DNA of 64,000 bases from contig JAIUPH010000004.1 of assembly GCA_020161065.1 (NCBI GenBank), positions 1 to 64,000 of the forward strand, in the 5' to 3' direction. How positions within the stretch are numbered: the stretch's first letter is position 1; every line of letters begins with the position of its first letter. The stretch is from Pseudomonadota bacterium. GTDB taxonomy: Bacteria > Pseudomonadota > Gammaproteobacteria > Burkholderiales > Burkholderiaceae_C. Shown piece by piece: positions 7,509-48,886 of the stretch. Both the position numbers and the translations under genes were made by a program. The notes below the pieces were generated by a model, which saw only the letters and a program-made list of their open reading frames with translations, was not told the DNA's origin and ran no database searches.

Positions 7509-8314
<806 letters not shown>

Positions 8315-8315
<1 letters not shown>

Positions 8316-12729: not shown

Positions 12730-12798
12730 GGGCGAATCCTCCTGCAAAGAAAGACGGACCCGCCACAGCTTGCCGCGCCGCGCGCGGCCCGACCTTGA

Positions 12799-14645
<1,847 letters not shown>

Positions 14646-14646
<1 letters not shown>

Positions 14647-29463: not shown

Positions 29464-30696
29464 ATGCAAGCCAGCTTCTACGACCTTTCGCCCGCCGGCC
29501 AGTTGCTGCTGATCGGCGGCCTCGCCGCCACCCTGGTGTTGACCTGGATCCTGCGGCGCGAGCGTGGCGGCGGCTGGCCCGCCCGCTGGCGGCTGCTCAC
29601 CCGGCTGCTGCTGGTGCTGACCTTCGACCTGGTGCTATTCGGCGCCTTCACGCGGCTGACCGATTCCGGCCTCGGCTGCCCCGACTGGCCGGGCTGCTAC
29701 GGCAACGCCAGCCCGCTGGGCGCACGCCACGAGATCAACGCCGCGCAGGCCGTGCTGCCCGACGGGCCGGTGACCCACGGCAAGGCCTGGATCGAGATGG
29801 TCCACCGCTACCTGGCCACGTCGCTGGGGGCGCTGATCACGGTGGCCATGCTGGCGAGCTGGTGGCTGCGCCGGCGCGACCACACGGCGCCACCGGCGCC
29901 GCCATGGCCCACGGCGGCGCCACCGGCGCCGCCATGGCCCACAACAGCGGCGGTGTCGCCAGGCCTGGCCACGGCGGCCTTCGTCTGGGTCTGCGTGCAG
30001 GGCGCCTTCGGCGCGCTGACGGTCACGCTCAAGCTCTACCCGGCGATCGTCACGCTGCACCTGCTGGGCGGCTACGCCGGGCTGGCGCTGTTGACGCTGC
30101 AGGCGCACGACCGCCGCTTGGCCGCCGTGCCCTGCAGCGCCGGCCTGCGCCGTGCCGCCTGGGCCGTGCTGGCGCTGATCGTGGTGCAGAGCGCGCTGGG
30201 CGGCTGGGTCAGCACCAACTACGCAGTGCTGGCGTGCAGCGAGTTTCCGCGCTGCCAGGGTTCGTGGTGGCCGCCGATGGACTTCGGCCACGGCTTCACG
30301 TTGTTGCGCGACCTGGGGCAGACCGGCGACGGCCAGGGCCTGCCGTTTGCGGCGCTGACGGCGATCCACTACACGCACCGGCTGGCGGCTTACGTCGTGC
30401 TGGCCTCGATGGCCGCGCTGGCCTGGGCGCTGCACCGGCACGGCGGCGTTCATTTACGACGTTATGCGCAAGGCCTGGCGGCGCTGGCGGCGTGGCAGTT
30501 CGCGAGCGGGCTGTCCAACGTCGTGCTCGGCTGGCCGTTGCTGGCGGCGCTGGCGCACACCGGCGGCGCTGGCGCGGCGATCGTGCTGATGACGCACCTG
30601 CTGGCGCGCACGCGCGCCGTGCCGGCGGTGGTGGCACCGCTCGCGCCGCCGCTCAGACCAGGCGCGCCAGCAGGGCGAGCAGCGCAGCCGCGATGA
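29464..30696 (+). CDS. ctaA: Heme A synthase (CtaA/Cox15 family)
   Basis: 410 residues, eight predicted transmembrane helices. Conserved motifs are FGAFTRLTDSGLGCPDWPGC (residues about 59-78), EMVHRYLAT (Glu111, His114), THRLAAYVV and a late HTGGAGAAIVL. The two-cysteine loop of the family is present (GCPDWPGC). The protein converts heme O to heme A on the periplasmic side. It contains a 10-residue tandem duplication (Pro/Ala-rich loop after about residue 140). It shares an FNR/DNR-box spacer with the TPR gene and sits upstream of the heme-copper operon, which suggests a dedicated heme supply. Confidence 0.88.
   Translation: MQASFYDLSPAGQLLLIGGLAATLVLTWILRRERGGGWPARWRLLTRLLLVLTFDLVLFGAFTRLTDSGLGCPDWPGCYGNASPLGARHEINAAQAVLPDGPVTHGKAWIEMVHRYLATSLGALITVAMLASWWLRRRDHTAPPAPPWPTAAPPAPPWPTTAAVSPGLATAAFVWVCVQGAFGALTVTLKLYPAIVTLHLLGGYAGLALLTLQAHDRRLAAVPCSAGLRRAAWAVLALIVVQSALGGWVSTNYAVLACSEFPRCQGSWWPPMDFGHGFTLLRDLGQTGDGQGLPFAALTAIHYTHRLAAYVVLASMAALAWALHRHGGVHLRRYAQGLAALAAWQFASGLSNVVLGWPLLAALAHTGGAGAAIVLMTHLLARTRAVPAVVAPLAPPLRPGAPAGRAAQPR
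29885..29942 (+). repeat. 30-bp tandem duplication inside the heme A synthase gene
   Basis: Two copies of a 30-bp unit (28 of 30 bases shown by CGGCGCCACCGGCGCCGCCA at both offsets) encode a duplicated Pro/Ala/Trp loop between transmembrane helices. In-frame, so the gene stays open. Confidence 0.8.
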
Positions 30697-31546
30697 GGTT
30701 GTGCAGCAGCACGGCGGCCAGCGGCAGGCCGCTGGCCGTCATCCACAGCCCGAGCAGCGCCTGCAGCAGCAGCAGCGCGCCGATGGCGAGGCCGGTCGCG
30801 CGGCGGCCCAGGCGCAGCGCCAGCCAGGCCACCACGGCCAGCAGCGGCAGCAGCAGCGCCGCGCCGCCGCGGTGCAGCAGGTGCAGCCAGGCGCCGCGCG
30901 GCTGGCCGGGCGCCGCGGCGGCATCGGGCGCCAGCCAGGGGTTGAGCGCCTGCGCGTCCCAGCCGGCCTGACCCGCGATGCGGCTGCAATCGGCCCAGTC
31001 GCCGCAGGCCTGCGCGGCCGCGGCGCCGCTGATCAGCGCGCCCAGCGCCGCTTGCAGCACGACGGCCAGCAGCGCGACGGCGGCCCAGCGCCTCAACTGA
31101 AGCGTTGGCCGCGTTGACGCTGGCGGCGTCGGCGGCGCCGCCAGCCGCACGCTGAGCGCCAGCAGCACGAAGCCGCCGAGCAGGTTGCCCAGCGTCACCG
31201 CCGGCAGCGTGGCGCCGCGCGTCACCACGCCGAGTGCGGCCAGCGCCAGCGTCAGCACCAGCAGCGCCAGCGCCAGCGGGCCCTCGGGCCGCAGCGCCGG
31301 GCGCGGCCGGTGGCTGATCACCAGCAAGGCCACGGCCAGGCCGAGGAAGACGGTGGCCACGATGCGGTGGGCCAGCCGCGCCAGCCCTTCGGCAACGCCG
31401 GACGCGGCGGCCGGCGGCGCACCGGCCTGCGACAGGCGCAGGTAGGCGCTGAGCACGATGGTGGCCAGCATCAGCGCCACGCAGACGCGGGCCAGGCGGC
31501 GGATCTGCGCGCGGCGGCGCGCGGGCTCAGGGGCGGCGAGGGCCAT
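30653..31546 (-). CDS. Degenerate Cox15/CtaA-like membrane protein
   Basis: 297 residues with about eight transmembrane helices and the general CtaA layout. It lacks several hallmark residues. The loop motif L-T-x-S-G-L-x-C-P-D-W is reduced to LRLSQAGAPPAAASG. The conserved Glu before the first His is Ala/Leu (GLARLAHRIVA, His60). A second-helix His is Asn (LGNLLGGFVL). Later histidines (LLHRGGAALLL, LLHNLIAAALL) remain. It may bind heme without full heme A synthase activity, or may be a regulatory partner of the neighbouring CtaA. It is convergent with that gene and overlaps its end by 44 bp. Start at 31546 (MALAAPEPARR) is preferred. Confidence 0.7.
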   Translation of the reverse strand: MALAAPEPARRRAQIRRLARVCVALMLATIVLSAYLRLSQAGAPPAAASGVAEGLARLAHRIVATVFLGLAVALLVISHRPRPALRPEGPLALALLVLTLALAALGVVTRGATLPAVTLGNLLGGFVLLALSVRLAAPPTPPASTRPTLQLRRWAAVALLAVVLQAALGALISGAAAAQACGDWADCSRIAGQAGWDAQALNPWLAPDAAAAPGQPRGAWLHLLHRGGAALLLPLLAVVAWLALRLGRRATGLAIGALLLLQALLGLWMTASGLPLAAVLLHNLIAAALLALLARLV

Positions 31547-31757: not shown

Positions 31758-31919
31758 ATGACGACACCGGCACACGACGATCCGAACGAACCCGTGCCCT
31801 GGATGCAGCAGTTGCTGGACAACCCGTTCCTGCTGTTGTTCCTCGGCGTGTTCGTGCCCATGATGGTCTACACGGTGTGGGGCGTGGTCGACATCCTCAC
31901 GCTGCCGGTGGCCAAGTAG
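31758..31919 (+). CDS. Small single-helix membrane subunit of the heme-copper enzyme
   Basis: 53 residues: MTTPAHDDPNEPVPWMQQLL and one transmembrane helix (FLLLFLGVFVPMMVYTVWG). AAGGAG lies 7 bp before the ATG. It is 9 bp before the CuA subunit gene. Small single-helix subunits (for example the IIa subunit of ba3 oxidase) are typical of the B-type heme-copper family. This protein has that position and form, and the family link is by context. Confidence 0.75.
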   Translation: MTTPAHDDPNEPVPWMQQLLDNPFLLLFLGVFVPMMVYTVWGVVDILTLPVAK

Positions 31920-31928
31920 GAGAACGGC

Positions 31929-32468
31929 ATGAGCGCCATTCTTCCGCCGGCCGAGCGGCTTTGGTACAAGCACCCGATCGACCGTGTCGAAGGCACCTGG
32001 ATCGCCATCGCGCTGACCTGGTGCCTGATCATGTTCTTCATGATGGTCGGCTGGCACATCTGGGGCCAGCAGAACCTGTCGACCGAGACCTACCGCACCA
32101 CGCCTGACAAGTTCATGCCCAAGGTGCAGGCGATGGTCGACAAGTACACCGTGCGCACCGAGACCGACGAGAAGACGCCGGTGGTGGCGCCGCCGGCGGG
32201 CAGCGACGTCTACATGCTGGCGCGGCTGTGGAGCTTCTACCCGATCCTGGAGTTGGAGAAGGGCAAGACCTACAAGCTGCACCTGACGGCGATGGACTAC
32301 AACCACGGCTTCTCGCTGCAGCCGGCGAACATCAACATCCAGATCGTGCCCGGCTTCGAGCACGTGGTCACCGTCACGCCCAACCAGTCGGGCACCTACT
32401 CGGTGGTCTGCAACGAATACTGCGGCATCGGCCACCACAAGATGGTCGGTCGCATCTACATCAAGTGA
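31929..32468 (+). CDS. CuA-binding subunit II of B-type heme-copper enzyme
   Basis: 179 residues. One N-terminal transmembrane helix (about 24-45, WIAIALTWCLIMFFMMVGW) anchors a periplasmic cupredoxin. The CuA ligands are all present: His126 (MDYNHGFSL), Cys161, Cys165, His169 and Met172 (VVCNEYCGIGHHKMVGR). The length and single anchor fit ba3-type subunit II. It accepts electrons from a cytochrome c or cupredoxin and feeds subunit I. With the adjacent subunit I lacking the active-site tyrosine, it may be the CuA subunit of an sNOR-type NO reductase (the norSY-senC arrangement known from nitrifiers). Confidence 0.9.
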   Translation: MSAILPPAERLWYKHPIDRVEGTWIAIALTWCLIMFFMMVGWHIWGQQNLSTETYRTTPDKFMPKVQAMVDKYTVRTETDEKTPVVAPPAGSDVYMLARLWSFYPILELEKGKTYKLHLTAMDYNHGFSLQPANINIQIVPGFEHVVTVTPNQSGTYSVVCNEYCGIGHHKMVGRIYIK

Positions 32469-32478
32469 GGAGGACGCG

Positions 32479-34179
32479 ATGAGCACCGCGACGACGTATC
32501 GCACCTGCCCGCGTTCCGGGCTGCAATTCGAGCGCCAGGCCGAATGGCTGATCAAGGCCAACGCCTTCATCGCCGTGGTCTGGCTGCTGATCGGCGGCCT
32601 GCTGGCCATCGGCGTCGTGCTGACGCGCTGGCCGGCGGTGCGCTGGCTGGAGGCCGACACCTTCTACATGGTGCTCACGGCGCACGGCATCGACATGCTG
32701 ATCTTCTGGATCATCTTCTTCGAGGTCGCGGTGCTGTACTTCTGCGCCTCGACGCTGCTGCGCTGTCGAATCGCGACGCCGAAGATCGCCTGGCTGGCCT
32801 TCGCGCTGATGCTGATCGGCTCGGTGGTCAACAACATCTCGGTGTTCCGCGGCGCGTCCAGCGTGATGATGACCTCGTACGTGCCGATGATGGCCGAGCC
32901 GAACTTCTACCTCGGCCTGATCCTGTTCGCCGTCGGCGCGCTCGTCGCCTGCTTCGTGTTCTTCGGCACCCTGGTGGTGGCCAAGCGCGAGAAGACCTAC
33001 ACCGGCTCGGTGCCGCTGGTCACCTTCGGCGCCATCACGGCGGCCATCATCGCGGTGTTCACCATTGCCTCGGGCGCGATCATCCTGATCCCCACCTGGC
33101 TGATGTCGCTGGGCGTCGTGAAGTCGGTCGATCCGCTGGTCTACCGCACCATCTGGTGGGCCTTCGGCCACTCGTCGCAGCAGATCAACGTGGCGGCGCA
33201 CATCTCGGTGTGGTACCTGGTGGCGGCCATCGCCTTCGGCGCCAAGCCGATGAGCGAGCGCGTCAGCCGCACCGCCTTCCTGCTGTACATCCTGTTCCTG
33301 CAGCTCGCCTCGGCGCACCACCTGCTGGCCGACCCGGGGCTGTCCACCGGCTGGAAGGTCGTCAACACCAGCTACTTCATGTACTTCGCGGTGCTGGCCT
33401 CGATGCTGCACGGACTGACGATCCCCGGCGCGATGGAAGTGGCGCAGCGCCAGAAGGGCTACACCAAGGGCCTGTTCGAGTGGCTGCGCAAGGCGCCCTG
33501 GGGCAACCCGACGTTCTCGGGCGTGTTCATCTCGATCATCGGCTTCGGCTTCCTCGGCGGCATCTCCGGCGTGATGATGGGCACCGAGCAGCTCAACATG
33601 ATCATCCACAACACCATCTACGTGCCGGGGCACTTCCACGCCACGGTGGTGGTGGGCACGACGCTGACCTTCATGGCGCTGACCTACTACCTGATCCCGG
33701 TGCTGTTCAAGCGCGAGATGATCCTGCCCGGGCTGGCCAAGTGGCAGCCCTACCTGTTCGGCTTCTCGATGTACTTCTTCTGCCTGGTGATGATGGGCGC
33801 CGGCACGCTGGGCGTCTCGCGCCGGCACTGGGACATGGCCTTCAACGGCCACGCCCTGGCCTACGAATGGCCCGGCGCCGCCTACCTGATGATGGCGCTG
33901 GTGGGCATCGGCGGCGTGGTGGCGATCGCCGGCGGCGCGATCTACATCCTGATCACCGTCGGCTCGCTGCTGTTCGGCCGCAAGCTCGACGAAGGCGCCA
34001 CCAGCCCGAAGTTCACGCCGATCCCGCGCACCGCGCCGACCGGTGCCGCGCAGACCTACGGCTCGATGGGCTTCGCGGCGCCCGGCACCTTCGCGCTGGC
34101 GATGGTCTTCCTGCTGGCCTTCGTGCTGTACTACTTCATCAACTGGAAGTACCTCTCGACCTTGTGGGGCTTGTCGTGA
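32479..34179 (+). CDS. B-type heme-copper catalytic subunit with Gln replacing the active-site Tyr; candidate CuA NO reductase
   Basis: 566 residues, about 13 transmembrane helices. Low-spin heme ligands are His69 (LTAHGIDM) and His387. The high-spin heme ligand is His385 (VPGHFHATV). CuB ligands are His231 (AFGHSSQQ), His280 and His281 (SAHHLLADPG). These positions match Thermus ba3 oxidase (His72, 233, 282, 283, 384, 386) closely. The residue corresponding to its cross-linked Tyr237 is Gln235. That tyrosine is required for O2 reduction, and enzymes of this superfamily that lack it are NO reductases where tested. The gene order small subunit, CuA subunit, subunit I, ctaB, SCO resembles norSY-senC clusters. 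Ordinary ba3 oxidase is the alternative but the Gln argues against it. Overall call: heme-copper enzyme certain, NOR function inferred. Confidence 0.85.
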   Translation: MSTATTYRTCPRSGLQFERQAEWLIKANAFIAVVWLLIGGLLAIGVVLTRWPAVRWLEADTFYMVLTAHGIDMLIFWIIFFEVAVLYFCASTLLRCRIATPKIAWLAFALMLIGSVVNNISVFRGASSVMMTSYVPMMAEPNFYLGLILFAVGALVACFVFFGTLVVAKREKTYTGSVPLVTFGAITAAIIAVFTIASGAIILIPTWLMSLGVVKSVDPLVYRTIWWAFGHSSQQINVAAHISVWYLVAAIAFGAKPMSERVSRTAFLLYILFLQLASAHHLLADPGLSTGWKVVNTSYFMYFAVLASMLHGLTIPGAMEVAQRQKGYTKGLFEWLRKAPWGNPTFSGVFISIIGFGFLGGISGVMMGTEQLNMIIHNTIYVPGHFHATVVVGTTLTFMALTYYLIPVLFKREMILPGLAKWQPYLFGFSMYFFCLVMMGAGTLGVSRRHWDMAFNGHALAYEWPGAAYLMMALVGIGGVVAIAGGAIYILITVGSLLFGRKLDEGATSPKFTPIPRTAPTGAAQTYGSMGFAAPGTFALAMVFLLAFVLYYFINWKYLSTLWGLS

Positions 34180-34237: not shown

Positions 34238-35110
34238 ATGACCCAGGGTGGCCGCTGGCGCCTGGTGGCGAGCGTGTTCAAGCTGCGCATCGGGCTGCTG
34301 ATCATGCTCACCGCCGTCGCCGGGCTGGCCATCGTTCCCGGGGGCGCGTCGGTGACGGCGCTGCAGGCCCTGGTGCTGGCGTTGTCGGTGTTCGTCGCGT
34401 CGGCCAGCGCCGGCGCCTTCAACCAGTTCGTCGAGGCCGACAGCGACCGCCTGATGCCGCGCACGCGCGCCCGCGCGTTTGCCAGCGGCGCGCTGCCGCG
34501 CAGCGCCGGCTGGCTGAGCATCATCGTCGGGCTGCTGGTCGTCGCGGTGGCCGCCGCGGCCTGGTGGGTCAACGCGGTGGCCGCCACCTTCGTGCTGCTG
34601 GGCGCGCTGACCTATGCGGTGGTCTACACGCTGGGGCTCAAGCGCCGCACGGCCTGGAACATCGTGGTCGGCGGCCTGGCCGGCAGCTTCGCGGTGCTGG
34701 CCGGCGCGGCGGCGGTGAACCCGCAGCTCGGGCCGCAGGCGCTGCTGCTGGCGCTGGTGCTGTTCCTGTGGACGCCGCCGCACTTCTGGAGCCTGGCCAT
34801 CGCCAACGAGGCGCAGTACGCCGCCGCCGGCGTGCCCATGCTGCCGGTGGTGGTGGGGCCGGCGAGGGCCGCGCGCATCGTGCACGCCAACACCGTGGCA
34901 CTGGTGGTGGCCTCGCTGCTGCCGCTGGCCTTCGGCGCCGGCTGGGCCTACGGCGCGGGCGCGGTGATCGGCGGCGCCTACTTCCTGCGCAAGACGCACG
35001 CGCTGGCGCGCGCGCCGCAGCGCAGCACCGCCATGGCCTCGTTCTTCGCGTCGATGCTGCAGCTCAGCGCCTTGATCGCCGGGGTGTTGATTGACGCTGC
35101 CTTGCGTTGA
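34238..35110 (+). CDS. ctaB: Protoheme IX farnesyltransferase (heme O synthase)
   Basis: 290 residues of the UbiA prenyltransferase family. The prenyl-diphosphate motif NQFVEADSDRLMPRTRAR (residues about 67-84) fits the N-x-x-x-D-x-x-x-D pattern, and a second set appears as RRTAWNIVVGGLAGS and LFLWTPPHFWSLAI. GGAGG 8 bp upstream supports the ATG. It makes heme O for the heme-copper enzyme encoded just upstream. Its presence implies that the enzyme uses a farnesylated heme. The next gene overlaps its end by 20 bp. Confidence 0.9.
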   Translation: MTQGGRWRLVASVFKLRIGLLIMLTAVAGLAIVPGGASVTALQALVLALSVFVASASAGAFNQFVEADSDRLMPRTRARAFASGALPRSAGWLSIIVGLLVVAVAAAAWWVNAVAATFVLLGALTYAVVYTLGLKRRTAWNIVVGGLAGSFAVLAGAAAVNPQLGPQALLLALVLFLWTPPHFWSLAIANEAQYAAAGVPMLPVVVGPARAARIVHANTVALVVASLLPLAFGAGWAYGAGAVIGGAYFLRKTHALARAPQRSTAMASFFASMLQLSALIAGVLIDAALR

Positions 35111-36011
35111 ACGCCTTGCCGCCGCGCTGCTGGCCGCCGCGGCGCTGCTGCTGATCGGCGGCGGCGCGCGCGCGGCCGCCGCCGAAGCCGAGGCTGCCAC
35201 CACCACCACGACCCCCACGACCCCCACCGCGGTGCCGGCGCTCGACGAGCGCGAGGCGCTGCGCCTGGGCGACGCCGCCATCGGCCGCGCGGTGCCCGAG
35301 CTGGCGCTGCGCGACCGCCAGGGCCAGCTCGTGAACCTGTCGCGCTACCGCGGCAAGCCGCTGCTGGTGAGCTTCATCTACACCGGCTGCTTCCAGATCT
35401 GCCCGACGCAGACGCGCGCGCTTTACGAAGCCGTCAAGGGGCTCGACCGCATGCTCGGCGAGCAGCAGTTCAACGTCGTCAGCATCGGCTTCAACCAGCC
35501 CTTCGACACGCCCGACGCGATGCGCGCCTTCGCGGCGCAGAACCGCATCGGCTACCGCAACTGGGAGTTCCTGAGCCCCACGCGCGAGCAGGTCGAGCCG
35601 CTGACGCGCGCCTTCGGCTTCAGCTACGTGGCGACGCCGGCCGGCTTCGACCACGTGCTCGGCGTGACCGTGGTCGACGCGCAGGGCCGCATCCACGCCC
35701 AGGTCTACGGCGACCGCCTGCGCGCCGACCGCCTGGGCGAGCCGCTGCGCCAGTTGCTGCTGGCCGCGCCGCCGCAGGCCGCGCCGGTGACGCTGGCCAG
35801 CATGGTCGAGCGCGTGCGCATCCTGTGCACCATCTACGACCCCGACAGCGGCGAGTACCGCTACGACGTCAAGCTGATCCTCGAAATCATCGGCGGCGCC
35901 GGCTTCTTCCTCACGGTCATCGTCTACGGTCTGCTCGAATGGCGCAGCCAGCGGCGCGCGCGCCGGTCAACATGTCAGCCTCCGCAACCAGCCTCCGGCA
36001 GCGCGGCCTGA
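35091..36011 (+). CDS. SCO1/SenC-type copper chaperone with C-terminal membrane helix
   Basis: 306 residues starting at a TTG (TLPCVERLAAALLAAAALLL) directly after an in-frame stop, overlapping ctaB by 20 bp; no ATG is available before the signal sequence. The thioredoxin-like domain has the copper site Cys100-x-x-x-Cys104 (TGCFQICPTQT) and His188 (GFDHVLGV). After about 260 a transmembrane helix follows (IIGGAGFFLTVIVYGLLEW). Such proteins load the CuA centre. Its position after the CuA enzyme matches the senC gene of norSY-senC clusters. The next gene starts inside its 3' end. Confidence 0.85.
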   Translation: MTLPCVERLAAALLAAAALLLIGGGARAAAAEAEAATTTTTPTTPTAVPALDEREALRLGDAAIGRAVPELALRDRQGQLVNLSRYRGKPLLVSFIYTGCFQICPTQTRALYEAVKGLDRMLGEQQFNVVSIGFNQPFDTPDAMRAFAAQNRIGYRNWEFLSPTREQVEPLTRAFGFSYVATPAGFDHVLGVTVVDAQGRIHAQVYGDRLRADRLGEPLRQLLLAAPPQAAPVTLASMVERVRILCTIYDPDSGEYRYDVKLILEIIGGAGFFLTVIVYGLLEWRSQRRARRSTCQPPQPASGSAA

Positions 36012-37543
36012 AGGGCTGGCAGGCCGTCGAAGCGCTGTTCGACGCCGCCTTCGGCTCGCGCCTGAACCCGCTGCGCCACCTGGGCGCGATCGGCGTGCTG
36101 GCGTTCTGGCTGCTGGCGGCCAGCGGCATCGTGCTGTACGCGGTGCTCGATACCTCGGCGGCCGGCGCCTGGGCGTCGGTCGAGGCGCTGGCGCATGTGC
36201 CGTTGGGCCTGGGCCTGCTGCTGCGCGGCCTGCACCGCTACGCAGCCGACGCGCTGATGCTGGCCATGCTGCTGCACCTGCTGCGCGAATGGCTGCACGC
36301 GCACGAGCGCGGCGTGCGCCGCTTCCACTGGCTGACCGGCGTGGTGCTGATCGGCTTCGTCTTCGTCGCGTCGATCGGCGGCTTCTGGCTCAACTGGGAC
36401 CAGCTCGGCCAGTACTCGGCCATCGCCACCGCCGAGTGGCTGGACGCGCTGCCGCTGCTGGCGGCGCCGCTGGCGCGCAACTTCCTGGCCGGCGCGGTGG
36501 GCGACCGGCTGTTTTCGCTGTTCGTCTTCGTCCACCTGGGGGTGCCGCTGCTGCTGCTGTTCGGGCTGTGGTTCCACGTGCAGCGCCTCAGCCGCGCCGA
36601 GTGGCTGCCGCCGCGGCCGCTGGCGCTGGGCGTCACGCTGACGCTGGCCGCGCTGGCGCTGGCCTGGCCGGTGCTGAGCCAGCCGCCGGCGGCGCTGGAC
36701 CGCGTGCCGCAAAGCCTGCAGCTCGACTGGCTGCTGCTGTGGCTGCACCCGCTCACCGATGCCGGCTCGGCCGCGCTCACCTGGGCGCTGGTCGGCGGCG
36801 CGGCGCTGCTGCTGCTGACGCTGCCGTACTGGCCGCAGCCGGCCAAGCCGGCGGTGGCGCTGGTCGATGCGGCCAACTGCAACGGCTGCCGGCGCTGCTT
36901 CGCCGACTGCCCCTACGCCGCGGTGACCATGGTGCCGCACCCCAACCAGCGCATCGGCCGCCAGCTCGCGCAGGTCGACGCCGACCTCTGCGTGGGCTGC
37001 GGCATCTGCGCCGGCGCCTGCCCGTCGTCGACGCCGTTCCGCGGCGCGGAGCGGCTGGTCACCGGCATCGACATGCCGCAGCTCGGCGTCGACGGCTTGC
37101 GCCGCCGGCTGCGCGAGGACCTGGCGGCGTCCAAGGCCGAGCGGCCGCTGGTGGTGTTCGGCTGCGACCACGGCGCGCGCCGCGGGGCCGCGGCTAACGC
37201 CGATGATGATGATGTCAGCGGCTGCAGCCTGCTTTGCGCCGGGCAGTTGCCGCCGTCGTTCGTCGAGTACGCGCTGCGCGACGGCGCCGCCGGCGTGCTG
37301 GTGGCCGCCTGCCGCGAAGGCGGCTGCGAGTTCCGCCTGGGCGAGCGCTGGACCGCCGAGCGCCTGGCCGGCCGCCGCGAGCCGCACCTGCGCGCCCAGG
37401 TGCCGCCCGAGCGCGTGGAGCTGGTCTACGCCGGCCCCGGCGACGAGGCGCTGCTGGCCGCCGCGCTGCAACGCCTGCGCCGGCGCGTGCAGGCGCTGGC
37501 CCCGATTCCTTCGGATCCCGAACGGCGCCTGCGCCATGGCTGA
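35972..37543 (+). CDS. Cytochrome b fused to 2x[4Fe-4S] ferredoxin and MvhD-like domain
   Basis: 523 residues. Residues 1-285 are a cytochrome b6-like module with two histidine pairs spaced 14 apart (His88/His102 and His188/His202), giving bis-heme b. Residues 298-352 hold two [4Fe-4S] motifs (C303, C306, C309, C313 and C340, C343, C346, C350). Residues 390-505 carry cysteines at 398, 418, 422, 447 and 452 in a pattern (VFGCDHGA, GCSLLCAG, AACREGGCEFRLG) like MvhD/FrhD [2Fe-2S] proteins. That family links electron-bifurcating dehydrogenases to hydrogenase or methyl-carrier partners. A fusion to cytochrome b is unusual. It overlaps the SCO gene by 40 bp and the next gene by 8 bp. It likely transfers electrons between the quinone pool and a cytoplasmic iron-sulfur partner; direction is unknown. 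Confidence 0.8.
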   Translation: MSASATSLRQRGLKGWQAVEALFDAAFGSRLNPLRHLGAIGVLAFWLLAASGIVLYAVLDTSAAGAWASVEALAHVPLGLGLLLRGLHRYAADALMLAMLLHLLREWLHAHERGVRRFHWLTGVVLIGFVFVASIGGFWLNWDQLGQYSAIATAEWLDALPLLAAPLARNFLAGAVGDRLFSLFVFVHLGVPLLLLFGLWFHVQRLSRAEWLPPRPLALGVTLTLAALALAWPVLSQPPAALDRVPQSLQLDWLLLWLHPLTDAGSAALTWALVGGAALLLLTLPYWPQPAKPAVALVDAANCNGCRRCFADCPYAAVTMVPHPNQRIGRQLAQVDADLCVGCGICAGACPSSTPFRGAERLVTGIDMPQLGVDGLRRRLREDLAASKAERPLVVFGCDHGARRGAAANADDDDVSGCSLLCAGQLPPSFVEYALRDGAAGVLVAACREGGCEFRLGERWTAERLAGRREPHLRAQVPPERVELVYAGPGDEALLAAALQRLRRRVQALAPIPSDPERRLRHG

Positions 37544-38084
37544 AACCTTGTCTTCTTCTCCGTCACGTCCTTCCGATGCGCCGGCCGGCCCGGCGCGCTG
37601 GCTGGGCCAGGTGCTGCTGTACGGCCTGTTCGCGCTGGCGATCGGCGTCTTCTCGCACTGGCCGCCGTACCACCACCTGGGCCCCGGGCAGGCGCTGATC
37701 AAGGTCAGCTTCTCGCGCGTGGGCAAGCCGGTGGGCGACTGCCGCAAGCTCAGCGACGCCGAGCTGGCCAAGCTGCCGCCCAACATGCGCGCCACCGAAC
37801 AGTGCCCGCGCGAACGCTCACCGGTGACGATCGAGGTCGACGTCAACGGCGCCAACGTGCTCAGCCGCACGGCGCCGCCGAGCGGCCTGTCCAAGGACGG
37901 CGCCTCGGCGCTTTACCAGCGCCTGGTGGTGCCGGCCGGCGAGCAGCGCATCGCGGTGCGCTTTTCCGACGACGTGCGCGCCCGCGCCACGCCGTACCAC
38001 CGCGAAGCCACGGTGAAGCTGGTGCCGGGCCAGGTGCTGGTCATCGATTTCGACGCCGAGAAGGGCGGCATCACCCTGCAATGA
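37536..38084 (+). CDS. Single-helix membrane protein of unknown function in the respiratory operon
   Basis: 182 residues. One transmembrane helix (about 22-42, ARWLGQVLLYGLFALAIGVF) is followed by a periplasmic beta-rich domain with a conserved-looking HWPPYHHLGPGQALIKVSFS, a Cys pair (DCRKLSD, TEQCPRER) and a closing LVPGQVLVIDFD. It overlaps both neighbours (8 bp and 4 bp). I do not recognise the family. The position between the two redox fusions and the two cysteines suggest an assembly or electron-transfer accessory, like FixH-type proteins, though no FixH motif is seen. Confidence 0.65.
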   Translation: MAETLSSSPSRPSDAPAGPARWLGQVLLYGLFALAIGVFSHWPPYHHLGPGQALIKVSFSRVGKPVGDCRKLSDAELAKLPPNMRATEQCPRERSPVTIEVDVNGANVLSRTAPPSGLSKDGASALYQRLVVPAGEQRIAVRFSDDVRARATPYHREATVKLVPGQVLVIDFDAEKGGITLQ

Positions 38085-39508
38085 ACACCCTCGTCGCCTT
38101 GCGCAAGCATTCCCGCGCCGTGCCTGCCACGGCATCCACCCCGTCCGACTACGTGCTGCCGGTGGCCGGCGCCGAGCGCATCGCGCTGGCGCGGCGCTGG
38201 CTGCTGCTGGCGCTGGCGGCGCTGCTGGGCTCGGGGCTGTTCTCGGTGCTGCTGGTGCTGGCGCGCACGCCGGGCATCAACGCCTGGCTGCCGGCCGGCG
38301 ACTTCTTTCGCGTGGCGCTGGTCGTGCACGTCGACCTGTCGGTGCTGGTCTGGTTCGCCGCGATGGCCGGGCTGTTGTGGAGCCTGAACCTGCGCGAGCC
38401 GCAGACGCCGCGCGCGCGGCTGGCGGCGCGCGTGCCGCTGGCGCTGTGCGCGCTGGGCGCCTTCGGCATGGCGCTGGCCGCCTTCGTCGAGCCCGGGCAG
38501 GCGGCGGTGATGGCCAACTACATCCCGGTGCTCGACGGCGTGGTCTTCCGCGGCGCGCTGGCGCTGTTCGGCGCCGGCGCGCTGGCGCTGGTGGCGCTGG
38601 GACTGGCGCGCGCCCTGCCCGTGGGGCTGGCGCCCGACGGCAGCGGTGCCTTGCGCTTCGGCCTCAACGCCAGCGTGGTGGCGGCGGCGGTCGGGCTGCT
38701 GGCCTTCGGCTGGTCGCTGGCGGTGGTGCCGGCCGATCTGCCGGCCAAGGCCTATTACGAGATCCTGTTCTGGGGCGGCGGCCATGCGCTGCAGTTCACC
38801 TGGACGCTGCTGATGCTGGTCTCCTGGCTGGCGCTGGCGCAGGCCTGCGGCGGGCGGCTGCCCTTGAGCCCGCGCGTGGTGCTGCTGATGTTCGCGGTGG
38901 CGCTGGCCAGCGTCTTCGTCACGCCGCTGGCTTATCTGATGCACGACGTGAGCACGGTCGAGCACCGCGACATGCACACCTGGGGCATGCGCTTCGGCGG
39001 CGGCGTGGCCATCGTGCCGCTGGCGCTGGCGGTGCTGGTGGCGGTGGCGCCGCTGCGCTCGGTGGGCGCGCTGCAGCGGCCGCTGCGCGCGGCGCTGCTG
39101 GCGTCGATGCTGCTGTTCGTCGCCGGCGGGCTGATCGGCCTGGGCATCCAGGGCAGCAACGTCAAGATCCCGGCGCACTACCACGGCTGCATCGTCGGCG
39201 TCACGCTGGCGCTGATGGGCATGGTCTACCACCTGCTGCCGCGCCTGGGCTACGCGGCGCCCAGCGGCCGGCTGGCGGTGGCGCAGCCCTGGGTCTACGG
39301 CATCGGGCAGTTGATGCACATCGTCGGCCTCGTGTGGTCGGGCGGCTACGGCGTGCAGCGCAAGGTGGCCGGCGCCGAGCAGGTGCTGCGCAGCACCGGC
39401 GAGGTGGCCGGCATGGGCTTGATGGGCCTGGGCGGGCTGCTGGCGGTGGTCGGCGGGCTGCTGTTCGCGCTGGTGGTGTGGCGCGCCATGCGGGCGGCGG
39501 CGCGATGA
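38081..39508 (+). CDS. Highly divergent heme-copper oxidase-like subunit lacking Tyr and His-His pair
   Basis: 475 residues, about 12 transmembrane helices. Heme-copper features: His83 in a helix-II-like VVHVDLSVLVW; His235 in FWGGGHALQFT, where the Tyr position (+4) is Phe239; His366 and His368 in IPAHYHGCIVG (the helix X pair). In place of the CuB His-His, helix VII reads VEHRDMHTWGMRFGGG with His295 and His299. This differs from all oxidase types I can name. It may represent an uncharacterised NO reductase-like family, where active sites vary. It overlaps the next gene by 4 bp (ATGA) and follows the unknown protein by a TGA/ATG overlap. It is a separate catalytic subunit from the CuA enzyme at 32479. 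Confidence 0.75.
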   Translation: MNTLVALRKHSRAVPATASTPSDYVLPVAGAERIALARRWLLLALAALLGSGLFSVLLVLARTPGINAWLPAGDFFRVALVVHVDLSVLVWFAAMAGLLWSLNLREPQTPRARLAARVPLALCALGAFGMALAAFVEPGQAAVMANYIPVLDGVVFRGALALFGAGALALVALGLARALPVGLAPDGSGALRFGLNASVVAAAVGLLAFGWSLAVVPADLPAKAYYEILFWGGGHALQFTWTLLMLVSWLALAQACGGRLPLSPRVVLLMFAVALASVFVTPLAYLMHDVSTVEHRDMHTWGMRFGGGVAIVPLALAVLVAVAPLRSVGALQRPLRAALLASMLLFVAGGLIGLGIQGSNVKIPAHYHGCIVGVTLALMGMVYHLLPRLGYAAPSGRLAVAQPWVYGIGQLMHIVGLVWSGGYGVQRKVAGAEQVLRSTGEVAGMGLMGLGGLLAVVGGLLFALVVWRAMRAAAR

Positions 39509-41433
39509 TCGCCTTGCTTCAGCGCGTGCTGCGCGCCGGCTTCATGCGCGCCGAGGCGCTGTTCAACCGCGCCTTCGGCGACCGGCTGAACCCGCTGTAC
39601 CACCTGGGGGCGATCACCTTCTTCCTGTTCTGGGTGGTCGGCGGCACCGGGCTCGTGCTGTATGCCTTCTTCGACACCAGCGTCAGCGGCGCCTACCGCT
39701 CGGTGGAGGCCATCAGCCACGGCGCCTGGGGCGCCGGCGGCGTGCTGCGCACGGTGCACCGGCATGCGTCGGACGCGATGCTCTTGAGCATGCTGATCCA
39801 CCTGCTGCGCTACTTCGCCTTCGACCGGCTGCGCGGCTTTCGCTGGTTCTCGTGGGTCACCGGCGTGGTGCTGCTGTGGCTGGCCTACATCGCCGGCGCC
39901 AACGGCTACATGCTGCCGTGGGACCGGCTGGCGCAGTTCGTCACGCAGGCCAGCTTCGAGTGGCTGGACTGGCTGCCCGGCTTCGGCGGCCGGCTGATCC
40001 GCAACTTCATCCTGCCCGAGCACGTCAACGACCGGCTGTTCTCGCTGCTGGTCTTCATCCACATCGGCGTGCCGCTGCTGATGCTGCTGCTGATGTGGGT
40101 GCACGTGCAGCGCGTGCCCAAGGCCGCCACGCAGCCGCCGCGGCCCATCACCGTGGCGCTGCTGGTGATGCTGCTGCTGCTGGCGCTGCTGGCGCCGGTG
40201 GTCAGCCAGGGCCCGGCCGACCTGCACACGACGCCGGCGGTGCTGTCGATCGACTGGTTCATCCTGCCCATCTTCACGCTGCTGTACGCTTGGCCGCTGG
40301 CGGGCGTGTGGACGCTGGTGCTGGGCGGCACGGCGCTGCTGGCGCTGCTGCCCTGGCTGCCGCCGCGGCGCCGCGCCGGGCAGCTGCGGCAGATCACCGC
40401 GCACCCGGGGCCGGCGCGCATCGCGGCGCGGCCGGGCGAGACGCTGCTCGAAGCCGGGCTGCGCGCCGGCCTGGCGCTGCCCTACGACTGCCGCGCCGGC
40501 GGCTGCGGCCAATGCCTGTGCACGGTGCTCAACGGCCGCGTCGACCAGGGCGCCTTCCAGGCCGCGGCGCTGACGCCGGCCATGCAGGCGCGCGGCCAGG
40601 CGCTGATGTGCTGCGCGGTGGCGCTGGAAGACGTGGAGATCGAAGTCGAAGGCGTTGCCACGCTGGGCAGCGCCGACGCCACGCCGCTGGGCCGCTGGCA
40701 GGCGCGCGTGCAGCGCATGGAACGGCTCTCGCCCGACCTGATGCGCATGCACATCGCGCTGCCCGAAGGCCAGCACCTGCCCTTCACCGCCGGCCAGTAC
40801 ATCAACATCCTGCTGGCCGACGGCGAGAAGCGCGCCTTCTCGTTCGCCAACGCGCCGGCCGACCCGGCGCAGCCGCCGTCGACCGCGGGCGACGTGATCG
40901 AGCTGCACGTGCGCTGGATTCCCGGCGGCCGCTTCACGACCCAGGTTTTCGAGCAGATGAAGGTCGGCGACACGCTCGATTTCGAAGGGCCGCTCGGCCG
41001 CTTCACGCTGCACGACAGCGAGCGGCCCATCCTGATGCTGGCCGGCGCCACCGGCTTCGCGCCGATCAAGAGCATTCTCGAAGACGCCTTCCGCCGCGGC
41101 GTGCAGCGGCCGATGCAGCTCTACTGGGGCGTGCGCAAGGCCGGCGACCTGTACCTGCAGGAGCTGCTGCAGCGCTGGCAGGCCGAGCACCCCAACTTCC
41201 GCTACGTGCCGGTGCTGTCGGAGGCCGACGACGACGCACGCTGGAGCGGCCGCCGCGGCTACGTGCACGAAGCCTTGCTGGCCGACCACCCCGACCTCGG
41301 CGGCTTCGAGGTCTACGCCTGCGGCTCGGTGCGAATGGTGCAGGCGGCGGTGCCCGACTTCCTGGCGCACGGGCTGGGCGAGCAGTTCTGCTTCTCGGAC
41401 GCGTTCGTGCCCTCGCCGCGTAGCGGCGGCTGA
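39505..41433 (+). CDS. Cytochrome b fused to [2Fe-2S] ferredoxin and FAD/NAD(P)H reductase
   Basis: 642 residues. Residues 1-285 are a cytochrome b module with His pairs 85/99 and 186/200. Residues about 293-385 are a plant-type ferredoxin (C329, C334, C337, C369 or C370 in YDCRAGGCGQCLC and LMCCAV). Residues 393-640 are a ferredoxin-NADP reductase-like unit: flavin motif KRAFSFANAP, NAD(P) motif LAGATGFAPIKSI and YACGSVRMVQ. The layout would move electrons from NAD(P)H via FAD and [2Fe-2S] to membrane hemes b. Placed next to a heme-copper-like subunit, it may supply it directly with NAD(P)H electrons. The start (ATG inside ATGA) overlaps the preceding gene. The last codons lie in a 25-bp tandem repeat. 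Confidence 0.85.
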   Translation: MIALLQRVLRAGFMRAEALFNRAFGDRLNPLYHLGAITFFLFWVVGGTGLVLYAFFDTSVSGAYRSVEAISHGAWGAGGVLRTVHRHASDAMLLSMLIHLLRYFAFDRLRGFRWFSWVTGVVLLWLAYIAGANGYMLPWDRLAQFVTQASFEWLDWLPGFGGRLIRNFILPEHVNDRLFSLLVFIHIGVPLLMLLLMWVHVQRVPKAATQPPRPITVALLVMLLLLALLAPVVSQGPADLHTTPAVLSIDWFILPIFTLLYAWPLAGVWTLVLGGTALLALLPWLPPRRRAGQLRQITAHPGPARIAARPGETLLEAGLRAGLALPYDCRAGGCGQCLCTVLNGRVDQGAFQAAALTPAMQARGQALMCCAVALEDVEIEVEGVATLGSADATPLGRWQARVQRMERLSPDLMRMHIALPEGQHLPFTAGQYINILLADGEKRAFSFANAPADPAQPPSTAGDVIELHVRWIPGGRFTTQVFEQMKVGDTLDFEGPLGRFTLHDSERPILMLAGATGFAPIKSILEDAFRRGVQRPMQLYWGVRKAGDLYLQELLQRWQAEHPNFRYVPVLSEADDDARWSGRRGYVHEALLADHPDLGGFEVYACGSVRMVQAAVPDFLAHGLGEQFCFSDAFVPSPRSGG

Positions 41434-43840: not shown

Positions 43841-45226
43841 ATGATCCGCATCTTCAGCCACTACGTAAGCCGGCAAAGCATGCTGCGGGTGCTGTTCGAC
43901 CTGGCTTTCCTGCTGCTGGCCATGTTGGTCGTGTTCGTGGCGTTCGCCGACGGACTGTCCGCCATCGGGGCGCAGGCCGGCGCGCCGGTGCTGTCGGTCG
44001 CCGCCGGCATGTTCATCGTCAACTCGGCTTCGGGTTTTTACCAACGCTCCAGCAACTTCACGGCGTCCCAGGCGCTGGGCCGTGCGACCATCGCCTTGTT
44101 GATCGTGCTGCCGTTGACGTACTTCGTCTTCGACCTGCTGCCCCCCACCGTCACCAATCGCGAAGCCATCAAGTACGCCGCCATGTTCGGCGCCGGGGCC
44201 GTGGTGCTTCGCCGCCTGTACGTCACGCTGTGGGGCGCCGACCCCCTGTCGCGCACGCGCATCCTGATCTTCGGCGCGGGGCCTGCCGCGGGCATCGTCG
44301 GCGCCACGCTGAAGGCGTCGGACCCCAACGCGCACATCGTCGGCTACGTCTCGGGCCCCAACGAAAAGGAAGTCTCCGTCGCCAGCGGCGAGTTGCTGTC
44401 GACCGACGGCCAGTCGCTCACCGAAACGGCGCGGCGGCTGCAGGTCGACGAGATCGTCGTCGCGCTGACCGAGCGCCGCGCCGGCAGCATGCCCTTGCGG
44501 CAACTGCTGGACTGCAAGCTCAGCGGCATCAAGGTCTACGACATCGCCACGCACTTCGAGAAGACGCTGGGCCAGATCCGCATCGACTACGTCAACGCCG
44601 GCTGGCTGATCTTCGGCAGCGGCTTCAACCAGGGCGTGGCGCGCAGCCTGATCAAGCGCAGCTTCGACCTGCTGTGCTCGTTCGTGCTGTTCGTGCTGGC
44701 GCTGCCGATCATGCTGGTGACGGCGCTGCTGATCAAGCTGGAAAGCCGCGGCCCGCTGCTGTACCTTCAGGAGCGCGTGGGCCAGAACGGCAAGACCTTC
44801 AAGGTGTGCAAGTTCCGCAGCATGCGCACCGATGCCGAGAAAGACGGCCGCCCGGTCTGGGCCGTGGCCAACGATTCGCGGGTGACGCGCATCGGCGCCA
44901 TCATCCGCAAGCTGCGGGTCGACGAACTACCGCAGCTCTTCAACGTGCTCAAGGGCGAGATGAGCCTGGTCGGCCCGCGGCCGGAGCGGCCGTTCTTCGT
45001 CGAGCAGTTGACGGCGCAGATCCCGTACTTCGCGGCCCGCCACAGCGTCAAGCCGGGCGTGACGGGTTGGGCGCAGGTGCGGTATCAGTACGGATCGACG
45101 GTGGAGGACTCGCAGGAGAAACTCCAGTACGACCTGTACTACGTGAAGAACCATTCGCTCTTCCTCGACATCGTCATCCTGTTCGAGACGGTCTTCGTCG
45201 TGCTCACCGCCAAGGGCGCACGCTGA
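43841..45226 (+). CDS. XrtA-system undecaprenyl-phosphate sugar phosphotransferase (EpsB type)
   Basis: 461 residues. Four or five N-terminal transmembrane helices, a Rossmann-like middle (ILIFGAGPAAGIVGATL) and a C-terminal bacterial sugar transferase domain. That domain starts RSFDLLCSFVLFVLALPIML and holds LLYLQERVGQNGKTFKVCKF, then LRVDELPQLFNVLKGEMSLVGPRP-type motifs (RVDELPQLFNVL; MSLVGPRPERP). It loads the first sugar phosphate onto undecaprenyl phosphate for exopolysaccharide. The protein matches the PEP-CTERM-associated family. Its place directly before prsK supports the XrtA context. Confidence 0.9.
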   Translation: MIRIFSHYVSRQSMLRVLFDLAFLLLAMLVVFVAFADGLSAIGAQAGAPVLSVAAGMFIVNSASGFYQRSSNFTASQALGRATIALLIVLPLTYFVFDLLPPTVTNREAIKYAAMFGAGAVVLRRLYVTLWGADPLSRTRILIFGAGPAAGIVGATLKASDPNAHIVGYVSGPNEKEVSVASGELLSTDGQSLTETARRLQVDEIVVALTERRAGSMPLRQLLDCKLSGIKVYDIATHFEKTLGQIRIDYVNAGWLIFGSGFNQGVARSLIKRSFDLLCSFVLFVLALPIMLVTALLIKLESRGPLLYLQERVGQNGKTFKVCKFRSMRTDAEKDGRPVWAVANDSRVTRIGAIIRKLRVDELPQLFNVLKGEMSLVGPRPERPFFVEQLTAQIPYFAARHSVKPGVTGWAQVRYQYGSTVEDSQEKLQYDLYYVKNHSLFLDIVILFETVFVVLTAKGAR

Positions 45227-45274
45227 ACGCTCGCGGCGGCTTCGCCGCACGAGCGGGCGCTGACCCCGGCCCCG

Positions 45275-47395
45275 ATGCTTGAACCCTCGCTCACGCTGCC
45301 GTTGGTGGGCCACGCGATCGCGGCGGCCGTCTACGCGGCGTTCGCCATCTACCTGCTGAAGCACGGCTACGCCTCGCGGCGCGGCGCCCGCGTGCAACAG
45401 GCGATGCTGGGCGCCGTGGTGCTCAGCCTGGGCTGGGCGCTGGCCGGCGTCGGCGATCAACTCTCGCCCTACACCTGGCCCGGCTACGTGGCCGCCGGCT
45501 TCGACCTCGCGCGCTACGCGGCCTGGCTGATCGTGCTGCTGTTGATGCTGCGCCCGGCGGGCGGTGGCGGGGCGTCGCAGCCGGGCCCAGGCGGCCGCAG
45601 CTTGCCCCGCGCGAGCGCGTGGCTGACCGCCGCGCTGCTGGCCGCCGCCGCGCTGGCGCTGGCCGAGCGCGTGCGCCAGGGGCAGTACGAGCCCGATGCT
45701 TCGCGCAACTTCCTGCTGGTGGCGCTCGGCCTGCCGGTCATGGGCCTGGTGCTGATCGAGCAGATCTTCCGCAACCTGGCCGACGCGCTGCGCTGGTCGG
45801 CCAAGCCCTTGTGCGTGGGGCTGGGCTTCATCTTCGTCTTCGATGTCTACCTCTACGCCGAAGGCGCGCTGCTCGGCCGGATCGACCCCGACGTGCTGGC
45901 GATCCGCCCGCTGGCGCATCTGCTGCTGATCCCGCTGCTGGCGCTGGCCTCGTGGCGGCGCGTCGACTGGGTGCAGACCATCCAGGTCTCGCGGCGCGCG
46001 GTCTTCTACTCGGCGACGCTGCTGCTGGCCGGCGGCTACCTGCTGTTCCTGGCGCTGATCGGCTACTACGTTCGCTACTTCGGCGGCCAGTGGGGCCGCG
46101 CGCTGCAGTTCGGGCTGCTGTTCGCCGGCGGGCTGACGCTGGTGCTGCTGGTGCTGTCGGCCTCGCTGCGCGCTCGCGTGCGGGTGTTCATCGGCAAGCA
46201 CTTCTTCAGCTACCGCTACGACTACCGCGAGGAGTGGCTGGCCTTCACCGCGATGCTGTCGTCCGACTCGTCGCCGCAGGAGGTGGGCGTGCTGGTGATC
46301 CGCGCGCTGGCCAACATCGTCGAATGCCCGGCCGGCAGCCTGTGGACCCGGGCCGACGATGGCGCCTACCGGCAGGCCGCGCACTGGAACACGCCCGAGC
46401 AAGCCAACCGTGAGCCGGCCGATTCGCCGCTGATCGGCTTCCTGCGCGAGAAGGCCTGGGTCATCGACGTGGAGGTCTTCCGCCGCGCGCCGGCCGACTA
46501 CGGCAACCTCGACCTGCCGCCGTGGCTGCTGGCCAACGACCACGTGTGGGCCGTGATCCCCTTGCACGACGGCTCCGAACTGCTGGGCTTCGTGGTACTG
46601 GCGCCGCCGCGCACGCCGGTCGACCTGAACTGGGAAGCGCGCGACCTGCTCAAGACCGCCAGCCGGCAGGCCGCCGGCTACCTGGCGCAGATGCGGGCGA
46701 CCGAGGCGCTGCTGGAGTCGCGCAAGTTCGACGCCTTCAACCGCATGTCGGCCTTCGTCGTCCACGACCTCAAGAACATCGTCACCCAGCTCTCGCTGAT
46801 GATGAAGAACGCCGCCCGGCTGCGCGACAACCCCGAGTTCCAGGAGGACATGCTGCTCACCGTCGAAAGCTCGCTGGAGAAGATGCGCCGCCTGATGCTG
46901 CAATTGCGCGAAGGCGTCGCGCCGCCGGGCGGCGTGCGCGGGGTGGAACTGGCCGGCATCGTCGAGCGATTGGGCCACCTCGCCGGCCAGGCCGGGCGCC
47001 GCCTTGACATCGAGCTGGCCGAACCCCTGGCCACGCGTGGCCACGAAGACCGTCTGGAGCGCGTACTCGGCCACCTTGTGCAGAACGCACTCGACGCCAC
47101 GCCGCCTTCAGGCAGAGTCTGGGTGCGTGTCAACCGCTTTGGCGGACAGGTGCGCGTCGAAGTCGGAGACACGGGTCAGGGCATGAGCGAGGAATTCGTC
47201 CGCACGCGGCTGTTCAAGCCGTTCAGCAGCACCAAGCACAGCGGCATGGGCATCGGCACCTACGAAAGCGCGCAGTACATCCGCGAACTCGGCGGCTCGA
47301 TCGAGGTCGACAGCCAGCCCGGGCGCGGCACGACGCTGACCGTACTGCTGCCGCTGTTCGACAGCAGCCGCGGCTCCGACCTGCGGGCGGCGTGA
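45275..47395 (+). CDS. prsK: PrsK, XrtA-associated sensor histidine kinase
   Basis: 706 residues. About 8-9 N-terminal transmembrane helices (to about 300), a GAF-like domain (about 320-470) and a kinase core. The phospho-acceptor is His497 in FVVHDLKNIVTQLSLMMKN. The ATP-binding motifs are VQNALDATPP (N box), VGDTGQGMS (G1), and FKPFSSTKHSGMGIGTYESA (F and G2). This is the standard partner of PrsR in XrtA/PEP-CTERM loci. It ends 4 bp before prsR. The kinase may sense surface or membrane state; the ligand is unknown. Confidence 0.92.
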   Translation: MLEPSLTLPLVGHAIAAAVYAAFAIYLLKHGYASRRGARVQQAMLGAVVLSLGWALAGVGDQLSPYTWPGYVAAGFDLARYAAWLIVLLLMLRPAGGGGASQPGPGGRSLPRASAWLTAALLAAAALALAERVRQGQYEPDASRNFLLVALGLPVMGLVLIEQIFRNLADALRWSAKPLCVGLGFIFVFDVYLYAEGALLGRIDPDVLAIRPLAHLLLIPLLALASWRRVDWVQTIQVSRRAVFYSATLLLAGGYLLFLALIGYYVRYFGGQWGRALQFGLLFAGGLTLVLLVLSASLRARVRVFIGKHFFSYRYDYREEWLAFTAMLSSDSSPQEVGVLVIRALANIVECPAGSLWTRADDGAYRQAAHWNTPEQANREPADSPLIGFLREKAWVIDVEVFRRAPADYGNLDLPPWLLANDHVWAVIPLHDGSELLGFVVLAPPRTPVDLNWEARDLLKTASRQAAGYLAQMRATEALLESRKFDAFNRMSAFVVHDLKNIVTQLSLMMKNAARLRDNPEFQEDMLLTVESSLEKMRRLMLQLREGVAPPGGVRGVELAGIVERLGHLAGQAGRRLDIELAEPLATRGHEDRLERVLGHLVQNALDATPPSGRVWVRVNRFGGQVRVEVGDTGQGMSEEFVRTRLFKPFSSTKHSGMGIGTYESAQYIRELGGSIEVDSQPGRGTTLTVLLPLFDSSRGSDLRAA

Positions 47396-47399
47396 GGTC

Positions 47400-48791: not shown

Positions 48792-48886
48792 TCGTCGGAT
48801 CAGGGATCGCCGGCGGCGACTCGTCCGCACGCGCAGGCGCGGCGCGACACAGCCACCATCGGCAAATGACTGGGGAAGTTGTCCAC

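Follow-up and report, generated by a model that had tools for sequence, protein, structure and literature searches.

Does a heme-copper enzyme that has the ligands of a ba3-type oxidase, and a Gln where oxidases carry the cross-linked active-site Tyr, reduce O2 or NO, and to which family does it belong? Such an enzyme is encoded in the stretch of DNA analysed here, designated the window, the first 64,000 nucleotides of contig JAIUPH010000004.1 of assembly GCA_020161065.1, a Pseudomonadota bacterium of the Burkholderiaceae_C with a genome of 6.29 Mb (41 contigs, 98.7% complete). An original prediction described the enzyme as a candidate NO reductase that receives electrons from cytochrome c, based on the active-site residues, a nearby nirS and a gene order resembling the norSY-senC (sNOR) clusters. 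The features identified are listed in Table 1.

Table 1. Genes of the heme-copper cluster and nirS in the window, with the evidence for each assignment
Feature	Coordinates	Strand	Evidence
nirS, cytochrome cd1 nitrite reductase, NO source	12853..14646	+	PF02239 494.7 bits and cytochrome c domain
Small one-helix subunit, 53 aa	31758..31919	+	ORF; homologue upstream of subunit II
Subunit II with CuA site	31929..32468	+	PF00116 24.5 bits; CuA ligands conserved
Subunit I, heme-copper enzyme with Gln235 for the cross-linked Tyr, candidate eNOR	32479..34179	+	566 aa; PF00115 214.5 bits; tree; residue tables
ctaB/cyoE heme O synthase	34238..35110	+	TIGR01473 239.9 bits, above cut-off
SCO1/SenC-type protein, likely copper chaperone, start codon uncertain	35091..36011	+	PF02630 52 bits
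Cytochrome b - 4Fe-4S - FlpD fusion, start codon uncertain	35972..37543	+	PF00033, PF12838, PF02662
Conserved protein of unknown family	37536..38084	+	No Pfam or NCBIfam match
HCO2, second paralog of subunit I, lacking His in the CuB columns of helix VII	38081..39508	+	PF00115 57.5 bits; residue table; heme-copper fold
Cytochrome b - 2Fe-2S - FAD/NAD(P)H reductase fusion	39505..41433	+	PF00033, PF00111, PF00970, PF00175

As originally predicted, subunit I has His residues (His69, 231, 280, 281, 385 and 387) that align with all of the heme and CuB ligand positions of ba3 oxidases, and these presumably serve the same metal-binding roles. The Gln reported four residues beyond His231 is also present, as Gln235, and aligns with the cross-linked Tyr of the B-family oxidases, the helix VI residue that marks ba3-type O2 reductases. 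All 72 family rows that cover this site, equivalent to 71 of 71 distinct sequences with about 46-100% identity to the window protein, have Gln and a chance origin of Gln235 is therefore rejected. The six His are complete in 70 of the 72 rows, the exceptions being two Thermus relatives with Lys in place of His387. These are the plasmid relatives L037 and L038, in which the site reads HFK, and Rrf2 and DUF542 genes are located near by. With K-path sites named and numbered by what we take to be the Thermus ba3 convention, Y246, S259 and S308 are present in 28, 27 and 28, respectively, of 28 Gln rows; the T312 site is occupied by His (H311) in all 28 and Y244 is lost. The predicted structure of subunit I is of moderate quality (mean pLDDT 71.9), with best matches to the Aquifex oxidase 7deg and to Thermus ba3-type oxidases. 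Subunit II was expected to have an intact CuA site and this is borne out by the alignment, in which the five ligands (H126, C161, C165, H169 and M172) are identical in 157 of 157 rows (148 distinct sequences).

The check proposed with the original prediction was a tree of subunit I, together with an alignment of helix VI. The tree has 63 rows, among them 28 with Gln, 26 B-family oxidases with Tyr and two enzymes with Asn from AOB. The Gln rows form a single clade (support 100/99), which includes the window enzyme and the Gln enzymes of Thermomicrobium and Thermus plasmids, and the 26 Tyr oxidases form a separate clade with weaker support (88/89). A placement of subunit I among the Tyr oxidases is rejected by this tree. 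The residue at the Tyr position is Tyr in 26 of 26 B-family oxidases and Asn in both AOB enzymes. A tyrosine elsewhere that fills the site had been named as an outcome that would speak for an oxidase. The column read for this, which we take to be the alternative-Tyr position of C-type oxidases, has either Leu or Ile in each of the 28 Gln rows, and this candidate was rejected.

These results bear on the alternative of a high-affinity O2 reductase able to dispense with the cross-linked Tyr of helix VI. It retains all of the metal ligands and a modified K path, three other tyrosines (Y270, Y299 and Y302) are typical of the Gln clade, being present in 28, 28 and 26 of the 28 rows, and an argument for an O2-reductase role has been made for the Nitrosomonas sNOR, in the excerpted part of PMC6967387. 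The absence of a Tyr in the column taken as the C-type alternative argues against this, as do the invariance of the Gln and the distribution of the enzyme, documented below, which tracks nirS-type genes and extends to genomes where NorB is missing. We consider an O2 reductase to be improbable.

The two AOB enzymes were found in two of eight searched genomes with AMO matches, and were taken as norSY-senC based on these matches and on the presence of a CuA subunit upstream and a SCO protein downstream. The Asn that marks sNOR is not the residue in subunit I, which has Gln, and the AOB enzymes have Ile or Val at the S309 site and Val in both cases at the T312 site, so that K-path residues kept in the window enzyme are lost. 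They branch outside the Gln plus Tyr B-family enzymes (100/99), although on a very long branch (3.92). Forcing the Gln and Asn rows together reduced the log-likelihood by 40.8, with a p-AU of 0.071 that does not reject such a clade at 0.05. The tree program also gave a warning about long branches that join between the Gln group and a pair of degenerate rows (L182 and L198). That the enzyme is a Gln variant of sNOR would agree with this p-AU value and with the similar order of CuA subunit, subunit I and SCO genes, the last two being separated by ctaB in the window, but it is made very improbable by the Asn and lost S309 and T312 K-path sites of the two AOB enzymes, and by their position in the tree. 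Membership of sNOR is rejected on the first two grounds, and the comparison with norSY-senC made in the original prediction does not hold at the active site. The degenerate heme-copper homologue in L182 and L198, both of which also have a Gln enzyme, has YFH in helix X, with Tyr in place of the first His, and YH in helix VII, and retains the helix VI Tyr.

As set out in the excerpted text of PMC8756737, the residue at the Tyr position is Asn in sNOR and CuA-NOR, Gln in eNOR, Asp in gNOR and Glu in cNOR and qNOR. Putative eNOR are there defined by the Gln, are credited with one proton channel, with none credited to sNOR, and are reported in many Alpha-, Beta-, Gamma- and Deltaproteobacteria. 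In the part of PMC11388526 consulted, eNOR is included among the biochemically characterised NORs, with the characterised enzyme given as reference 22 of that paper. Subunit I has the Gln by which eNOR are defined in the excerpt from PMC8756737, and the gene immediately upstream encodes the cupredoxin (CuA) subunit II. Subunits I and II, with the small subunit, are thus a candidate CuA-type NO reductase of the eNOR kind, a reading to which we assign a probability of roughly 80% and in which the class is given by the published Gln definition. The best reading of the sequences remains a predicted reduction of NO with electrons from cytochrome c via CuA, and this part of the original prediction stands. 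By the Gln definition, the enzyme is a further member of the published eNOR family and what is unusual is the long conserved cluster in which it is encoded and the presence of HCO2.

In the mechanism envisaged for such an eNOR, a periplasmic c-type cytochrome would reduce CuA, which would donate to the low-spin heme, and this in turn would reduce the high-spin heme/CuB site for the conversion of two NO to N2O and water. As Gln235 replaces Tyr, this site would function without the helix VI Tyr that takes part in O2 cleavage by oxidases. The modified K path through Tyr246, Ser259, Ser308 and His311, the latter replacing Thr, could serve for proton uptake. The enzyme would remove the NO made by NirS in a genome that has no NorB match.

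As had been stated, nirS is nearby, about 17 kb upstream of the enzyme, and nap genes are located after nirS in the window. A gene encoding a hemerythrin-domain protein (12193-12885, minus strand) adjoins nirS, and two more cytochrome d1-domain proteins are encoded on another contig of the same genome (G000:C1:3195-4274 and 7850-8899). The genome has four PF00115 matches, namely the window enzyme, HCO2, an A-type protein with the motif GHPEVY and a protein resembling ccoN, these two names being presumed from motifs. With all four accounted for otherwise, there is no NorB match among the PF00115 matches of the whole 98.7% complete genome, and the earlier statement that no norBC is seen holds genome-wide as regards matches to norB. 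A search for nosZ with PF18764 also gave no match, but the controls were equally silent.

The distribution of the enzyme was surveyed in 399 genomes of the order. A match to subunit I at 1e-20 was obtained in 38 genomes, three of which have Tyr-bearing matches with 26-30% identity and were not counted as carriers. The remaining 35 have matches with 64-100% identity; the Gln was read in 30 of these, and five, including two with partial matches, were counted by similarity alone. A strong cytochrome d1 match, at a limit of 1e-80 that also admits nirS-like paralogs, is present in 102 of the 399 genomes. These matches are in 31 of the 35 genomes with the enzyme versus 71 of the 364 without (Fisher p 2e-16), and, among the genomes with d1, a cNOR or qNOR was found in 12 of the 31 with the enzyme versus 42 of the 45 tested without (p 3e-7), both p-values being a guide only because of relatedness among the genomes, the incompleteness of some of them and the setting of the cNOR/qNOR limits after inspection of the list. 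The search for NorB covered 80 genomes, including 45 of the 71 genomes with d1 but without the enzyme, and used one AOB cNOR as the query so that distant NORs could be missed. By the criteria used, a classical NOR is missing from 19 of the 31 d1 genomes that carry the enzyme. A classical NOR is also present in 13 of the 35 genomes with the enzyme, and four of the 35 do not have a strong d1 match. From this pattern, the enzyme seems to take the place of a classical NOR and, specifically, of NorB. Co-occurrence with nirS-type genes would also fit an enzyme that handles NO mainly for detoxification, or in some other N-oxide reaction such as dismutation, rather than for respiratory N2O formation, and the cluster departs from a simple respiratory NOR in having cytochrome b fusions of NAD(P)H-linked and iron-sulfur types. 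The CuA site and conserved K-path residues would, however, point to a cytochrome c-fed respiratory enzyme, and to us a primary role in detoxification or dismutation has little likelihood.

The order of small subunit, CuA subunit, subunit I, ctaB and SCO genes was correctly described in the original prediction, and the cluster continues beyond these to a total of nine genes, with the cytochrome b-4Fe-4S-FlpD fusion, the unnamed protein, HCO2 and the cytochrome b-2Fe-2S-FNR fusion following in that order. Conservation was counted in named loci taken from the best 80 of 552 matches, and so only the nearest ones, with 56 that have at least 8.5 kb downstream being counted. Within these best 80, the loci nearest to the window by subunit I are from Rubrivivax and other Burkholderiales MAGs. 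Cultured carriers among the named loci include Castellaniella defragrans DSM 12141 (L154) and Simplicispira strains (L135 and L140). All nine genes are present in 47 of these 56 loci and the gene order 3′ of subunit I is the same as in the window in 41; the two cytochrome b genes are swapped in eight. Again among these 56 loci from the best 80 of 552 matches, a homologue of the small subunit is located directly upstream of subunit II in 54, the two without (L119 and L178) being loci that start within the cluster, and a homologue of the unnamed protein is present in all 56. A distinct cytochrome b-FeS gene, counted after removal of matches that fall inside the other cytochrome b gene, is present in 52 of the same nearest loci and absent from four, ctaB is absent from five and HCO2 from one. 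This one locus (L103), from a Rubrivivax MAG, is a natural dropout that has the cluster without HCO2. Residues C100, C104 and H188 of the SCO protein are conserved in at least 95% of 65 rows.

The cluster on a Defluviimonas plasmid (L035) ends at the unnamed protein, which is followed by a hemerythrin gene, and has neither HCO2 nor the FNR fusion in the stretch compared; clusters of this kind can therefore reside on plasmids. This shortened cluster is near the hemerythrin gene, moaA and a gene for a molybdopterin oxidoreductase. In the stretches compared, the relative on a Thermomicrobium plasmid is accompanied by genes for the small subunit, subunit II and heme O synthase and by no other downstream cluster gene. 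Next to the two relatives on Thermus plasmids, in the stretches compared, there is a gene for subunit II and none of the downstream cluster genes. In the window, two convergent and slightly overlapping COX15/CtaA-type genes (29464-30696, plus strand, and 30653-31546, minus strand) are located just 5′ of the cluster and, as they adjoin it, heme A might be made for the enzyme in addition to heme O. Downstream, at 43841-51664, there are XrtA/PEP-CTERM-type exopolysaccharide cluster genes (TIGR03013, TIGR02917).

Across 80 HCO2 rows (79 distinct sequences), the His of helix II, that of helix VI and the two of helix X are always retained, which preserves the heme-ligand histidines and one CuB histidine, and the aligned helix VII His pair is replaced, in all 80, by a variable residue and an invariant Tyr. 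Its residue at the Tyr position is Phe in 76 rows, Tyr in two, Ile in one and Val in one. A role as gNOR was rejected, as gNOR requires an Asp at this position according to the excerpt from PMC8756737 and there is no Asp in the 80 rows. Two nearby histidines, H288 and H295, are present in 44 and 69 of 73 rows, respectively, with an adjoining E294 in at least 97%, and these count against a clean loss of the CuB site; H295 is absent from some of the more distant copies. In a 28-row tree, HCO2 proteins form their own clade (100/100) on a long branch (2.58), with an odd letter make-up in the window row. HCO2, the Gln clade and the two degenerate rows group inside the B family (97/95), with no settled order among the three. 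The predicted structure of HCO2 is good (mean pLDDT 86.6) and matches heme-copper oxidases. A plasmid search with HCO2 gave no match at 1e-5 and a sequence search of the PDB gave none up to E = 10. Among the titles and starts of abstracts listed in literature searches for HCO2-like proteins, or for eNOR in these genera, there was nothing on this cluster and no description of HCO2. The nNOR, a proposed B-family NOR, was also considered for HCO2, and in the texts consulted it is named with no account of its features.

From its residues, HCO2 probably binds two hemes without a normal CuB, and our guess would be an electron-input or accessory role together with the two cytochrome b fusions. The nine genes could, more broadly, form a composite NO-handling system, in which HCO2 and the two cytochrome b fusions would work together, as a unit for electron input, for regulation or for a second catalysis, to connect NO reduction with NAD(P)H and donors of the ferredoxin type, but this we regard as a tentative and rather doubtful proposal. 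If true, a protein of the heme-copper superfamily would be working in this system without a normal CuB/FeB centre. A conserved HCO2 that does not have the helix VII CuB histidines is, in any event, a testable case of the heme-copper fold leaving its usual chemistry.

The candidate eNOR would have consequences for annotation. In annotated plasmid records, its relatives carry names such as 'cbb3-type cytochrome c oxidase subunit I' or b(o/a)3-type oxidase, and genomes annotated in this way therefore appear to make NO, via nirS, yet to be unable to remove it. Counting the enzyme as an NO reductase would change which bacteria score as N2O producers.

The window enzyme shares features with several known systems. 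The ba3-type B-family oxidases of Thermus and Aquifex have the same fold and ligands, and 7deg and the Thermus ba3 entries are the nearest solved structures, but they have Tyr237 where the window enzyme has Gln235 and identities are about 26-35%. The sNOR (norSY-senC) loci similarly have a CuA subunit, subunit I and a SCO protein close by, whereas the two AOB enzymes have Asn rather than Gln, have lost K-path residues and are very divergent. The bNOR/CuANOR of Bacillus is also a CuA-containing NO reductase related to the B family, as described in the excerpted parts of PMC3475470 and PMC11388526, but has Asn at the Tyr position in the excerpt of the former. Relative to published eNOR, a possible difference is the nine-gene cluster of the window, with a heme O synthase, a SCO protein, two cytochrome b fusions and HCO2. 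A proton channel is predicted for the published eNOR, in the text excerpted, and in the window enzyme Y246, S259 and S308 are kept, T312 is replaced by His and Y244 is lost, although retained residues need not amount to a functional channel. As in the window, the published eNOR, so far as the excerpts describe them, have Gln in place of the active-site Tyr and an adjoining CuA subunit II, and are reported in Betaproteobacteria among others.
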